Notes under the pieces: model-generated
Databases searched by the model: none
What the model was told of the DNA's origin: nothing
What the model saw: the letters and a program-made list of their open reading frames with translations, nothing else
Shown: piece by piece, positions 2,800-8,327 of the stretch
Layout: each line of letters starts with the position of its first letter
How positions within the stretch are numbered: position 1 is the stretch's first letter
Program-made: the position numbers and the translations under genes
From: Halovenus rubra
GTDB taxonomy: Archaea; Halobacteriota; Halobacteria; Halobacteriales; Haloarculaceae
Direction: 5' to 3'
Assembly (NCBI RefSeq): GCF_026586665.1
Contig: NZ_JAODIY010000004.1
Location: forward strand, 304,120-368,119
Length of the DNA: 64,000 nt

Positions 2800-3495
2800 T
2801 CAGTCGCCGGACTGGACAGCAACCTGTTCAGTCTCCCCTTCGGCTTCAGCCTCGCGCTCTTCTTTTGCTTCTTGTTCTTTCTTATCTTTAATCTTTTTCA
2901 GCCGGAAAATCTCTTCGCGTTCTTGTTCTTCGAGCTTTTGCTCGATATACTCCTGATTTTCACGAAGTTCGGGAAGGAGCTTGAACTCAAGTGCATTAAC
3001 GCGACGTTTGGTTGTTTCAATCTCGTCGAGCATCTTTTTCATCGCAGTTTCGACCTCGGCAGCGAGAATAATCGACTCAATCAACTCCTCGTACGCTTCG
3101 GCAGCCTCGTCGATACGGGCACTCGTCCCGAGTACACCGTACCCGCGTTCCTGTAGATCCTTCTGGACTTTCGTTGACTCAATCTGTGGTACCACGACAC
3201 CCATGATATTCTTGGATTGGGTGGTTATCTCGGGGTGTTCTTTCAGTGCGGATGCAGCGCCCCGGACAGCAACGTCACCTTCCATTGCGCGTGCCATGTC
3301 GATGGCGCGCTGGGCGTCCTGATAGTCGGCTTCGAGACCCGAGCGAACGTCTTGTGCTTGGTCAAGAATCTCTTGGAACTCCATAATGAGGCCGTCACGC
3401 TTTTTCTCTAGCGTGTCGTGCCCACGCTCGGATAGCTCGATACGCTCCTCGATCTCCATCAGGTTTTTCCGCGTGGGTTTAACGTCCTTGGCCAT
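2800..3495 (-). CDS. atpD: A-type ATP synthase subunit D
   Basis: 231 residues. Subunit D is the central rotor stalk of the archaeal A1AO ATP synthase, coupling proton flow through the K-ring to catalysis in A3B3. The protein is almost entirely helical coiled coil: N-terminal '[17 protein letters not shown]' and C-terminal '[19 protein letters not shown]'-like motif ('[20 protein letters not shown]'), both diagnostic of the family. An acidic tail ('[12 protein letters not shown]') is a halophilic adaptation. It belongs to the same complex as the atpHIKECFAB genes but is separated from atpB by bat, bop and a small membrane-protein gene, about 3.4 kb away. It probably shares a transcript with the small gene just upstream (about 40 bp gap). 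Confidence 0.95.
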
Positions 3496-3532: not shown

Positions 3533-3784
3533 TCAGTTATCGCTACCGTTGGTCGATTCACTGTCGTCGGTATCAGCCACTACTTCACCTTCTGTCGGCG
3601 TGTTTCGGCTGTAATACAGCTGTGACGCCCAGTAGATAAGCCCTCCAAGCAACAGCAAGTCAAACAGGAGTTGATTTGGCCCACTGTCTGTGGTGAACTG
3701 ATAGGCCCAGAGACTAAGCAACGCAACCATCAACACGCCAAAACCATTCCTCGCTGCCCGCAGTATGGGGTCGGTGTTGTTCAT
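3533..3784 (-). CDS. Small two-TM membrane protein between bop and atpD
   Basis: An 83-residue protein from the ATG at 3784 (an upstream in-frame start at 3829 is possible). Two hydrophobic segments ('FGVLMVALLSLWAYQF' and 'LLFDLLLLGGLIYWASQLYY') are followed by an acidic, serine-rich tail. I chose the 3784 start because a TATA-like ctatttag lies 26 bp upstream, giving a leaderless transcript. The bop terminator also lies just beyond. Function unknown. The position directly ahead of atpD and the matching spacing suggest co-transcription with atpD, so an assembly or membrane role for the synthase is possible but unproven. Confidence 0.6.
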   Translation of the reverse strand: MNNTDPILRAARNGFGVLMVALLSLWAYQFTTDSGPNQLLFDLLLLGGLIYWASQLYYSRNTPTEGEVVADTDDSESTNGSDN

Positions 3785-3805
3785 TGGCTGGTAGTAGCCG
3801 TCGCT

Positions 3806-3814
3806 TCTATTTAG
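3806..3814 (-). promoter_or_regulatory. TATA-like element for the small membrane gene/atpD unit
   Basis: On the minus strand this reads ctaaatag, centred 26 bp upstream of the ATG at 3784, the usual archaeal TATA distance for a leaderless mRNA. It would let atpD be transcribed independently of bop. Confidence 0.4.
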
Positions 3815-3845
3815 ACGCATTCCTTGCACTGTTTGGGGCCTTGCG

Positions 3846-3905: not shown

Positions 3906-4688
3906 TCAGGGCGCAGGTGGCGTATCACCCGTTTCCCCAGTCGTGCTTGTTGTCCGTTCTTTGACCGCATCAAGCACCTGATGACTCCGGAGCAGGATGA
4001 TACCGAAGCCGACCTTTGCGGCGAGGTCGAGCACCATGAATCCTGCAGTCTCGAAGTATAGTCCGTCTTCGGGACCGGGAAGAACACCAACACCTTCTGT
4101 GCCGACAAGCCACCAGACCGGGTAGACCAGCCACAGAACGAGTATCAGATTACGCAGCGTACTGAACGTACTCTGTGTACTCGCTGGAAGGTCCTTGACT
4201 CGCTCGGTCAACGATGTAAATAAGAAATACAGCAACACGAGCAAGAGTCCAGTACTGACACCCCACCAGACGAGGCGGTTAGCAACAACTTCGTCGAGTA
4301 GCGGTGCAGTCGCTAGCGTCGCGATAGCGCCAGTACCAATCATCAGCACGTCAAGCCCGATGAGCGTCCCGATAGTGTTACGATCAGCGCCTGCGAGCAA
4401 CGCGAGGTCATACAACAGCAGTGGTGTTGTTATCAACCAATCTGTGTATCGAGCCCAGTATATCGCGTACGTTTCACCTTCGTATGTTATTTCTATTAAC
4501 CCAAATCCGGTTGCCATTGAGAGGTAGTTTACGAAGGCAATCGCAGTTATCATTATCGTCGCGATATAGAACTTCTCGCGACGAGAGTCGTTTACGTTCC
4601 ATCCCCGGATGATGAAGTACAACATCCCGAGGAACATGCCTGCGGTTCCTAGCCAGAGCCATAACGCTTCACTTCCTGGTTGTGCCAT
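3906..4688 (-). CDS. bop: Bacteriorhodopsin, light-driven outward proton pump
   Basis: 260 residues, seven TM helices. Proton-pump residues are all present (BR numbering in brackets): R80 (R82), D83 (D85), T87 (T89), D94 (D96), E198 (E194), E213 (E204), D221 (D212) and the retinal lysine K225 (K216). The D-T-D set separates it from halorhodopsin (no Asp at position 85) and sensory rhodopsins (no Asp at 96), and no transducer gene is adjacent. L91 (L93) predicts green absorption. The helix F-G loop between the two proton-release glutamates is five residues longer than in BR. The sequence resembles the Haloarcula-type BR (N-terminus [20 protein letters not shown]). The ATG at 4688 is preferred over 4703 because of the family N-terminus and a TATA box 25 bp upstream. 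Confidence 0.97.
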
Positions 4689-4710
4689 GGTTACACATTC
4701 CAATTAGTTG

Positions 4711-4717
4711 TTATAGG
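4711..4717 (-). promoter_or_regulatory. bop TATA box
   Basis: Minus-strand cctataa centred 25-26 bp before the bop ATG at 4688, placing the transcription start at or next to the start codon (leaderless mRNA, as is common in haloarchaea). Confidence 0.6.
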
Positions 4718-4732
4718 TATTACATTCCATAC

Positions 4733-4745
4733 CCAATATAATTGG
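4733..4745 (-). promoter_or_regulatory. Palindromic upstream activator candidate for bop
   Basis: CCAATATAATTGG is an inverted repeat (CCAAT-ATA-ATTGG) whose near edge is 16 bp upstream of the bop TATA box. That is the position where the Bat-responsive UAS lies in Halobacterium bop-type promoters. The outline (ACC...TTGG around an A/T centre) is similar to that UAS, but the match is inferred by eye. Confidence 0.5.
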
Positions 4746-4784
4746 TTGATTAGGTGGTACTTACAGCGAATAAATATGTTCTAG

Positions 4785-6815
4785 TTACTGTTTATCGTAG
4801 AATGCTTCGAGGAGCTTTCGTTTGGCACTGCGGAGATGTTGATGGAACGTTGATTGACTAATTCCCATGCCTCCGGCAACATCCTCACCGTTTGCCCGTC
4901 GTGGCCAGTCGAAGAATCCACTCACATATGCCGTCTTGAGGGCATCGCGCTGTCGGTCTGTCAGTGCAGCGTTGACTTCACTCACGAACTCCTGATTGGT
5001 CCGTTGCGGTCGCTGGTTTTCGAGGTACGATTCCAAAACGGCGTTTGGGACTCGCATCTTAAACTCCTCGACGAACTGCCTGGGGTCGGTGTCTTTTGGC
5101 AACTGGACAGTCACTGTCCCGGTTCTCCCTTCTGCGACTGCGTCGGTGATTGTCCCTCCTCGCTCAACCACGACATCGACGAGCGGTGAGGAGCTAACAG
5201 ACAGCCGAATCAGGCCCCTGTTTTCTCTCCCACTCCGGATTACTGACGCTTTCTTTACCTCTTGGCGACGTTCGGCGGCAACAACTATTTCAGTCGGTGG
5301 GGCTCCCTCAACGTCGAAAAATAACACAGTACACGAATCTTCGGTCCGAGAGATGGTCCCGACATGTTCAAGACGACAATCAAGTGATGAGGTAACCCCG
5401 ACGAAACTCTCTTCGGGACCGACTGTCAGTCTCAGTTCCATTACGGCATCTCCCTGTACCATTGACTGCGTTTGGACCGCGTTCAGCGCTGTCCCAATGA
5501 TACGACCGATAGTTGAGAGCACGATAGTCTCGTGTTCATCGAACTGATGGTCTTCCTCTGCACAGATACCAACGACGCCGTACGTTGCCTCTCGATATGT
5601 GACGGGGACGACCGCGTGGGTTGGTAATGAACTGTTTGGCAACTCAGTATCGTTTTGTACCGCTACTGCGGCGCTCGTTTCAGGCCTGATATCGGAGTTG
5701 TCACTATCTAATACAACCTGTTCGGTTGAAAGTGCCCGCTCGACAAGTGGTGTTGGTGGTGTCACCTGTCCCTGACCTGTTTCACACCCGGATTGTGCCT
5801 GTGCATCTACTGTAATTTCTTGCTCTACCGGTTCCTGCTTGCCAATCCAAGTCAGCGTGTAGCCGTTTGCCTGAACAAATGCATCACAGACCTGTTGCTT
5901 GATTGTTGACTCCGTTCGTGCATGAATTACTTGTTCCGAGACATCCTGAAGTAATCCCTCGATTCTCTCAAGTAACGACTCGAATTCGGCCTGTTTTTGT
6001 TCTAACTGTTCGGCGCGGGACTGTGCTCTAATCTCGGCTTCCTTGCGTTCTGTTACATCGGTCTGATAGCCGACATAATGTGTTGCTTCCCCATCCTCCC
6101 ACCGAATCGGTGCAATTTCGACCCGATTCCAGAATTTGGCTCCATCTTTCGTGTAGTTACGTAGCTCTACGGCAGTTTCCGCGTCGTTCTCTATTGCCTC
6201 CCGCATCTGGTCGACTTTTTGCTGGTCAGACTTCCCGTTTTGTAGAAATCGACAGTTCTGGCCCAGTGCCTCTGACGCCGAGTAGCCAGTCAGTCGCTCG
6301 AACGCATTGTTGACGTAGACAAGCGGCTCGCCTGTCACCCGCATATCGGCAATCGTAATGCCTGCAGGCGCCCGGTCCATTGCCGTGTCCTTGAGCGACT
6401 CCTCGATTAGGTGGTCCTTTGTTCTCTGTGTCTCAGCGACATCTAATACCCGTTCGACCAGTTGATTTAGCTGGCTATTGTGGGGTGTCTTTGGAATATA
6501 CTCTGAAACACCGGCAGTTACCGCATCACTGGCTATTCGCTCGTTCCCATCACCTGTAAAGAGGACGAACGGAATCTCACCGTACGTTTCGCGAACAGAC
6601 TTGAGAAAGGAGATGCCTGTTTCGAGTGGAAGGTCGTGTTCGCTAACGATGCAAGCAGGGCGACAAGCAGCGAGGTGTTCTAGTGCATCTTCGCTGTCTG
6701 GGGTCACATCGACTGTTACTGATAGCTCTTCGAACGCGTCTCTTACCCGCTCTCGTGTCCCCTCGTCCGGGTCGACGTACAGTACCCTCAGCTTTCTTCC
6801 CCGTTGAGACGACAT
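4785..6815 (-). CDS. bat: Bat-type bacterio-opsin activator: receiver-LOV-GAF-HTH
   Basis: 676 residues. Residues 9-125 are a CheY-like receiver. The phosphoacceptor position is Glu (E59 in SEHDLP) where Asp is expected, while the acidic pocket D15/D17, T88 and K109 are kept. Residues about 143-258 form a PAS domain with the LOV signature GQNCRFLQ (adduct cysteine C188) plus the other flavin contacts N187, R189, Q192, N220 (RNYTKDG), N230 (FWN) and Q251. A coiled linker and a GAF domain (about 285-450) follow, then the Bat regulatory region and a C-terminal HTH_10 domain (about 618-673, 'GISQSTFHQHLRSAKRKLLE'). Bat proteins activate bop and related genes in haloarchaea. The gene directly precedes bop on the same strand. 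Blue-light sensing and a locked receiver are inferences from residues. Confidence 0.93.
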   Translation of the reverse strand: MSSQRGRKLRVLYVDPDEGTRERVRDAFEELSVTVDVTPDSEDALEHLAACRPACIVSEHDLPLETGISFLKSVRETYGEIPFVLFTGDGNERIASDAVTAGVSEYIPKTPHNSQLNQLVERVLDVAETQRTKDHLIEESLKDTAMDRAPAGITIADMRVTGEPLVYVNNAFERLTGYSASEALGQNCRFLQNGKSDQQKVDQMREAIENDAETAVELRNYTKDGAKFWNRVEIAPIRWEDGEATHYVGYQTDVTERKEAEIRAQSRAEQLEQKQAEFESLLERIEGLLQDVSEQVIHARTESTIKQQVCDAFVQANGYTLTWIGKQEPVEQEITVDAQAQSGCETGQGQVTPPTPLVERALSTEQVVLDSDNSDIRPETSAAVAVQNDTELPNSSLPTHAVVPVTYREATYGVVGICAEEDHQFDEHETIVLSTIGRIIGTALNAVQTQSMVQGDAVMELRLTVGPEESFVGVTSSLDCRLEHVGTISRTEDSCTVLFFDVEGAPPTEIVVAAERRQEVKKASVIRSGRENRGLIRLSVSSSPLVDVVVERGGTITDAVAEGRTGTVTVQLPKDTDPRQFVEEFKMRVPNAVLESYLENQRPQRTNQEFVSEVNAALTDRQRDALKTAYVSGFFDWPRRANGEDVAGGMGISQSTFHQHLRSAKRKLLEAFYDKQ

Positions 6816-6908: not shown

Positions 6909-8327
6909 TCAGTCAGCAGTAACTTCTTCAGCTTCGGCGTCCTCATCGTAGTGCTCGTCGATGAGGTCTTCGTCGATACGGCTGAGGACATCTTTCGGAA
7001 GCATAGACAGTAGGTCCCAACCAATGTCGAGTGTCCCGTCGATATCGCGGTTCTGCTTGAAGCCTTGTTCAATGAACTCGTCTTCGAAGCGGTCCGCGAA
7101 GTCGAGATATTTGTTGTCTAGGTCCGACAGTGCCTCCCGACCGACAATGTTCACGAGGTCACGCTTGTCTTCGCCCTCTGCGTACGCTGCATACAGCTGG
7201 TCGGAAACATCGCCGTGGTCTTCACGCGTAAGCCCCTCGCCGATACCGTCGTCCATCAGCCGGGAGAGACTTGGCAGGACATTGACTGGCGGTGTAACTC
7301 CCTGAGAGTTTAGGTCTGGGTCGACGATTATCTGTCCCTCCGTAATGTATCCAGTAAGGTCCGGAATCGGGTGTGTAATGTCGTTGCTGGGCATTGTCAG
7401 GATGGGGATCTGCGTAATTGACCCCTCTTCGCCCTTGATACGACCGGCCCGTTCGTAGATCTGTGCCAGGTCGGTGTACATGTATCCGGGGTAGCCACGA
7501 CGGCCAGGGACTTCCTCGCGTGCTGCACCGATTTCCCGCAGTGCCTCACAGTAGTTGGTCATGTCCGTCAGGATAACCAGAACATGATAGTCTTTCTCAA
7601 AGGCAAGATATTCCGCGGTGGTCAGCGCCAGTCGCGGCGTAACTGTCCGTTCGACTGCTGGGTCGTCCGCGAGGTTCATGAAGACAACTGAGCGCTCAAG
7701 TGCACCGGTTCGCTCGAAGTCGTCCATGAACTCGTTTGCCTCTTCCTGTGTAATCCCCATCGCGCCAAAGATAACTGCGAACTCGGAGTCATCGTCGTCG
7801 CCTTCATCTTCTGCTTCTTCAGGGACAGTTGCCTGTCGGGCAATCTGCAGTGCGAGGTCGTTGTGTGGTAGCCCTGCTGAGGAGAAAATCGGGAGCTTTT
7901 GCCCCCGAACGAGCGTATTCATGCCGTCGATGGCGGAGACACCCGTCTGGATAAACTCTTCTGGATACTCTCGTGAGAAGGGGTTGATTGCTTCACCAAC
8001 GATGTCTTGTCGTTCTTCGGGGACGATATCGGGACCGTCATCGATAGGTCGACCGGAACCGTCGAGAACGCGACCAAGGAGGTCCTCCGTCACGGGCATT
8101 TTCAGTGTCTCGCCGATGAATCGAACCGACGCGTTGCGGTCGATGCCATCAGTCCCCTCGAAAACCTGAATCGAGACGAGCCCATCGCTCGTTTCGAGTA
8201 CCTGTCCACGCTTGGTCTCTCCGTCGGGTGTCTCGATCTCAACAATCTCGTCGTAGCCGACCGGTTCGTCAACCTCGGCAAAGACCAGCGGACCGCTGAT
8301 TTCGGTAATCGTTTTGTATTCTTTCAT
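6909..8327 (-). CDS. atpB: A-type ATP synthase subunit B
   Basis: 472 residues. This is the regulatory, non-catalytic subunit that alternates with A in the A3B3 head. The fold is the usual beta-barrel ([20 protein letters not shown] at the N-terminus), nucleotide-binding-like domain without a Walker A lysine loop, and C-terminal helical bundle. Family signatures include '[19 protein letters not shown]' and '[20 protein letters not shown]'. The acidic tail is halophilic. It lies two bases after atpA, in the same operon. It is the last subunit before the bat-bop insertion. Confidence 0.97.

Follow-up and report, generated by a model that had tools for sequence, protein, structure and literature searches.

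In Halobacterium salinarum, Bat is an activator encoded next to bop, and it mediates the induction of this gene by oxygen and light (PMC3184054). It has the domain order REC-PAS-GAF-HTH_10. This Bat lacks the reactive cysteine of LOV domains (PMC4844311), and a near relative, Halobacterium sp. TGN-42-S1, has His188 in that place. With the Cys-less Bat, together with Brz and Brb, bop of H. salinarum is still induced by light (PMC3184054), so a cysteine adduct is not the universal light mechanism of Bat. In Halorubrum hochstenium, the LOV domain of Bat (BAT-LOV*) has Pro188 and Trp172, and has been purified (Yee et al. 2015, PMC4682037). It binds FMN, FAD and riboflavin in vitro and changes shape upon chemical reduction, while Trp172 shortens the excited state of the flavin (PMC4682037). 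An engineered P188C variant showed light-driven full reduction of the flavin with little semiquinone, and the authors discuss the new cysteine as an electron donor rather than an adduct former (PMC4682037). Thus, the presence of a cysteine is not enough to guarantee an adduct.

Other described proteins carry the canonical cysteine. Losi and Gartner (2014, PMC4844311) listed haloarchaeal LOV-HTH proteins with this motif and the order RR-LOV-GAF-HTH. Their survey is a domain list, and the literature cited here does not place such a protein beside bop in an ATP synthase cluster; tracing of the cysteine on a Bat tree is likewise absent from that literature and is given in the present survey. ALovD-1 of Halonotius sp., a canonical haloarchaeal LOV domain belonging to a PAS histidine kinase, has a photocycle from 446 to 390 nm that persists at salt concentrations as high as 3 M (Valle et al. 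2025, PMC12202551). The spacing of its Y30 and Y48 equals that of Bat residues 172 and 190, a match of positions that is inferred, suggesting that related haloarchaeal pockets form the 390-nm adduct. The LOV domains of YtvA and YF1 (4gcz) are among the closest crystal structures of a LOV domain with a signalling helix, but their output is STAS or kinase.

We analysed a stretch of 64,000 nucleotides from Halovenus rubra (hereafter, the window), in which a bat gene lies directly upstream of bop. The gene order is atpA-atpB-bat-bop-ORF98-atpD, all on the minus strand, whereas bat of H. salinarum clusters with brp. The features are as follows (positions are those of the window).

2800-3495, minus strand: atpD, subunit D of the A-type ATP synthase, following bop and ORF98 (PF01813, E 6.8e-59)
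3533-3829, minus strand: ORF98, encoding a small protein with two stretches that look hydrophobic, between bop and atpD
3906-4688, minus strand: bop, a bacteriorhodopsin-type proton-pump opsin (PF01036, E 1.5e-66)
4711-4716, minus strand: TATA-like CTATAA read in the sequence 28 to 23 nt before the bop ATG
4730-4747, minus strand: imperfect palindrome AACCAATTATATTGGGTA, similar to the Bat box (UAS), centred 50 nt before the bop ATG
4785-6815, minus strand: bat, a Bat-type transcription regulator of 676 aa (REC-LOV-GAF-BAT-HTH_10 by Pfam)
4806-4964, minus strand: HTH_10 DNA-binding domain, residues 618-670 (Pfam)
4983-5918, minus strand: joined span of GAF (300-444) and BAT (456-611) (Pfam)
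5922-6053, minus strand: predicted signalling helix of 44 residues (255-298) from LOV to GAF (full-length AF2 model)
6048-6386, minus strand: LOV core, residues 144-256 (best matches are LOV photoreceptors; AF2 model)
6063-6065, minus strand: Q251, predicted signalling glutamine at flavin N5/O4, invariant in alignments
6252-6254, minus strand: C188, predicted photo-adduct cysteine in GQNCRFLQ (185-192), aligned with the adduct Cys of YtvA
6456-6788, minus strand: pseudo-receiver domain, residues about 10-120, with Glu59 at the phospho-acceptor position
6909-8327, minus strand: atpB, subunit B of the A-type ATP synthase, the gene just upstream of bat (similarity to flanking genes of related loci)

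The domains found by Pfam in the window Bat are Response_reg (11-120), PAS_9 (163-256), GAF_2 (300-444), BAT (456-611) and HTH_10 (618-670), and this order is the published one for Bat (PMC5847659). BAT (PF15915) scored 111.5 bits against a cut-off of 25.8, and HTH_10 (PF04967) scored 77.9 bits against 23.1 (E 4.9e-22). The gene contains no stop codons, and the LOV residues and the downstream domains are all intact. In the receiver domain, Glu59 (6639-6641, minus strand) replaces the phospho-acceptor Asp, as it does in many other Bats; given this residue, phosphorylation may be absent. In a full-length AF2 model (mean pLDDT 85.6), single long helices flank the LOV core, one before it (114-147) and one after it (255-298), the latter running unbroken from LOV to GAF. 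The pTM of 0.44 makes the placement of the domains in this model unreliable.

A preliminary description of this DNA had proposed a complete LOV core in a Bat adjoining bop. Reading the sequence confirmed the Bat ORF and its coordinates, GQNCRFLQ, C188 and the listed FMN contacts: N187, R189, Q192, N220, N230 and Q251 are all present, and all of these contacts except R189 are invariant in an alignment of 35 Bats. We searched the 3.57-Mb genome for NCRFLQ as degenerate DNA and obtained three matches, while a reversed control pattern had none. All three lie inside LOV-like domains, in Bat and in two PAS histidine-kinase-type proteins, indicating that the motif in Bat is not a chance occurrence. 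With the Bat LOV domain alone as query, the top PDB sequence matches were LOV proteins (6hmj, 6e-32; YtvA 2pr5, 5e-29), and with a family profile the best matches were again all LOV proteins (best E 4e-48). The best NCBIfam match of the LOV part was the YtvA blue-light photoreceptor family with 147.2 bits, which is below the 250-bit cut-off of that full-length model. In sequence, the domain is not closer to the flavin redox PAS domain of NifL, which reached 59.6 bits, far under the YtvA family.

The AF2 model of Bat residues 128-285 has a mean pLDDT of 94 and contains the complete set of LOV strands and helices. Its listed Foldseek matches were LOV structures, and the best VIA-align match was a Meiothermus LOV domain (9vf7_D; Z 21.4, rmsd 1.2 over 138 residues). 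The predicted LOV/PAS fold includes the A' and J helices and superposes on LOV structures with Z about 21 over 105-138 residues. Flavin-free PAS domains of EAG (4hoi, 5j7e) superpose too (VIA-align, Z 20), and flavin binding is therefore not proven by the fold alone. BAT-LOV* and the window Bat share family, domain order, flavin pocket and even the residue number 188, but the window Bat combines Cys188 with Phe172 and is without the Trp172 that blocks photochemistry in the work of Yee et al. Tyr250 stands beside Q251 in the window Bat, where most Bats have Phe, and could act as a flavin quencher. By its sequence and its predicted model, the LOV core of the window Bat is complete in residues and correct in fold. 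Formation of a C188-flavin adduct is likely, judging from these residues and from analogy with ALovD-1, the one haloarchaeal LOV domain with a proven photocycle.

The preliminary description overstated the novelty of this LOV core. Proteins with the Bat-like order RR-LOV-GAF-HTH had appeared in a 2014 list (PMC4844311), and the purification of a Bat LOV domain followed in 2015 (PMC4682037), so that the window Bat joins published LOV-HTH proteins of Bat architecture, and the LOV domain in Bat itself was already known. The contrast it drew with classical accounts, in which Bat responds to oxygen, redox and light, is one between lineages, because the classical Bats are those without the cysteine (H. 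salinarum, PMC4844311; Halorubrum, with Pro188). It is not a contrast between an old and a new understanding of one protein. What is new here is the distribution of Cys188 among Bats and its link to the gene neighbourhood.

For this survey, the bat loci of 392 genomes belonging to the order, together with 80 named opsin loci, yielded 125 distinct Bats. The criteria for inclusion were resemblance to a Cys188 Bat (E <= 1e-85) and opsin similarity, and the set is not an unbiased census. Querying the genome contigs with a single Bat protein gave no related loci, and the named loci came from a scan with an opsin alignment. Residue 188 is Cys in 88 Bats, Pro in 30 and His in 7. Together with residue 172, the combinations are Phe-Cys (77), Tyr-Cys (11), Trp-Pro (30) and Phe-His (7). 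Trp172 thus accompanies every Pro188 and no Cys188, a link seen in a single clade and thus amounting to one evolutionary event. Besides the window Bat, all 39 Bats linked to ATP synthase genes have Cys188, and none of the 37 Cys-less Bats has this linkage.

In a Bat tree computed without the motif columns, Pro188 and His188 each form one clade (SH-aLRT 100), each beside Cys188 Bats. The Pro188 clade includes Halorubrum species, and the His188 clade takes in Halobacterium sp. TGN-42-S1 and Haloplanus ruber. Forcing the two into a single clade was rejected (p-AU 0.0009). Since two separate Cys-less clades adjoin Cys-bearing Bats in this unrooted tree, two changes at residue 188 are suggested within Bat, and we prefer two independent losses of Cys188. 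Loss is favoured over gain because outgroup LOV domains bear the cysteine and the Cys-less clades are narrowly spread. Rooting with HTH_10 paralogues, or with YtvA and other LOV domains, failed as the long branches joined, and a LOV-only tree for rooting had too few columns. The window Bat sits on a long branch (1.1) of the unrooted tree, and looks like one that keeps the original LOV photoreceptor state of the family.

Within the genus that we took as Halorubrum (g20), all 28 genomes with a match at E <= 1e-85 held exactly one Bat. Among these, 27 were typed: 20 with Pro188 and 7 with Cys188 in the ATP synthase cluster. The two forms are distributed in this genus as if they were alternatives. 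The nearest relatives of the window Bat (L062-L065), which have the same gene order, keep C188, and their flavin-phosphate Arg189 is changed to Asn or Asp. By sequence, the flavin pocket is thus not under absolute constraint among these relatives.

The preliminary description placed bop and bat beside the ATP synthase genes; they are in fact inside the cluster. The bop gene starts with ATG at 4688, with an in-frame TTG at 4703, and its product keeps the pump residues R82, D85, D96, E194, E204, D212 and K216 (bacteriorhodopsin numbering). The closest bop relatives within the same family share 69-73% identity with it. In total, four opsin genes are present in the genome, along with one homologue of the retinal-forming Brp/Blh, the latter on another contig. 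ORF98 had no match in Pfam and NCBIfam searches, and is possibly comparable to Bap, a small bop-linked protein.

That bop can be linked to H+-ATPase genes had been reported for Haloarcula (PMC1885257). The named Haloarcula loci have bop between atpB and atpD, and bat was not found in them (L177, L185, L189, L196, L198 and L202). In loci of Halorubrum, Halobellus and Halorubellus, a Cys188 bat is located between atpB and bop. Six further loci (L049, L053, L060, L090, L096 and L230) have bat in the ATP synthase cluster next to atpD, and bop was not found in the locus; their motif is NCRYLQ, or NCRFLQ in L230. In these, the regulator was apparently retained after the loss of its pump gene.

We compared the palindromic box between bat and bop with those of other loci. 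It stands where other bat-bop loci have their ACC-AACTAGTT-GGT box, and CTATAA sits between it and the bop ATG. We scanned the upstream regions of 34 bop genes, of the Cys188 and Haloarcula types, for TACCAAACTAGTTTGGTA. In 29 of them the best match begins 58 or 59 nt ahead of the ATG, in four it begins at 55 or 56 nt, and in one it is elsewhere (-99). We take the TACCAAACTAGTTTGGTA-type box to be the upstream activator sequence of H. salinarum (Baliga and DasSarma 1999). Such a box was not clearly seen in the short upstream part of an H. salinarum contig (L142). The bop gene of a near relative carries a similar box. Similar boxes also precede opsin genes linked to His188 and Pro188 Bats. The window box AACCAATTATATTGGGTA ranks with the poorest fits to the consensus and seems more like the Haloarcula version: 11 of its 18 letters match, with p about 0.02 at that position and 0.30 anywhere in the 110 nt. 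In five of the six bat-less Haloarcula loci the upstream region was read, and in these five bop is preceded by an AT-rich box like that of the window. A degenerate box, ACCNNNTNNANTNGGT, defined no regulon, having 36 matches in the genome against 22 for a reversed control. Since the window box is weak, we also dropped the idea that the bat-bop gap alone could prove control by Bat.

Taken together, the window Bat is probably a flavin-binding, blue-light-switchable activator of the neighbouring bop, acting through its HTH_10 domain. In the dark, the LOV domain would hold oxidised FMN. Blue light would then lead to a covalent bond between C188 and flavin C4a, and protonation of N5 would rotate Q251 and shift the last β-strand. 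This change might travel along the helix 255-298 and reach GAF, BAT and HTH_10, in what is probably a parallel dimer. HTH_10 would then act at the palindrome located some 50 nt ahead of bop, and transcription of bop would presumably rise. As the flavin would be redox-active, and as the GAF and pseudo-receiver domains may add further signals, oxygen or redox state and blue light would converge in one Bat protein. The cysteine is not to be equated with blue-light control, given the donor behaviour of P188C and the light induction seen with a Cys-less Bat.

The domain could instead be a flavin redox or oxygen sensor, for which FMN or FAD reduced at low oxygen is the signal, C188 is of minor importance and light has an effect, if any, through photoreduction only. 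The shape change of the Cys-less Halorubrum domain upon chemical reduction and the reduction of P188C by light (PMC4682037) are consistent with such a sensor, as is the Cys-less Bat of H. salinarum mediating both oxygen and light induction (PMC3184054). However, C188 is retained in the 88 Bats, whose overall identity falls as low as about 33%, and only the two clades lack it, the sequence is far nearer to LOV photoreceptors than to NifL, and the window Bat has Phe172 instead of the Trp that stops photochemistry. We thus consider a pure redox sensor unlikely here. It is also conceivable that an intact-looking LOV domain is a relic without a present regulatory role. The long branch of the window Bat and the loss of R189 in its nearest relatives would fit a relic, but with intact LOV residues and downstream domains, no stop codons and a high-confidence fold, this appears very improbable.

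A different doubt concerns the target. The LOV photocycle may work while Bat controls other genes or mainly represses, with bop expressed along with the ATP synthase operon or driven by a different HTH_10 paralogue, of which there are many. The location of bop within the ATP synthase cluster, where all genes share one direction, would allow this, and the genome holds about 50 Bat-, PAS- or HTH_10-related matches. The two genes also occur apart: Haloarcula has atpA-atpB-bop-atpD with the same type of box and no bat found in the loci, several genomes have atpB-bat-atpD without bop, and the box in the window is a weak match. On the other hand, bat adjoins bop in many genera, the gap between them holds the TATA-like element and the box, and Bat of H. 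salinarum activates bop (PMC3184054). A target other than bop therefore seems to us a little less probable still than a pure redox sensor, and a blue-light-switchable activator of bop is the reading that we prefer.

We tentatively suggest, with slightly less than even confidence, that Bat originated as a blue-light LOV transcription factor coupling a blue sensor to a green-light pump, and that the two model lineages independently lost the cysteine. If so, Halorubrum exchanged it for Pro together with a flavin-quenching Trp, and Halobacterium exchanged it for His, and decades of work on 'oxygen and light' would have used derived Bats without adduct photochemistry. Direct light sensing by Bat has been suggested, but not definitively established (PMC4682037). 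The present survey points to the Bats worth comparing, namely the Cys188 forms on one side and, on the other, the Pro188 and His188 forms studied until now. The survey is also relevant to the idea that LOV domains were ancestrally redox sensors lacking the cysteine.
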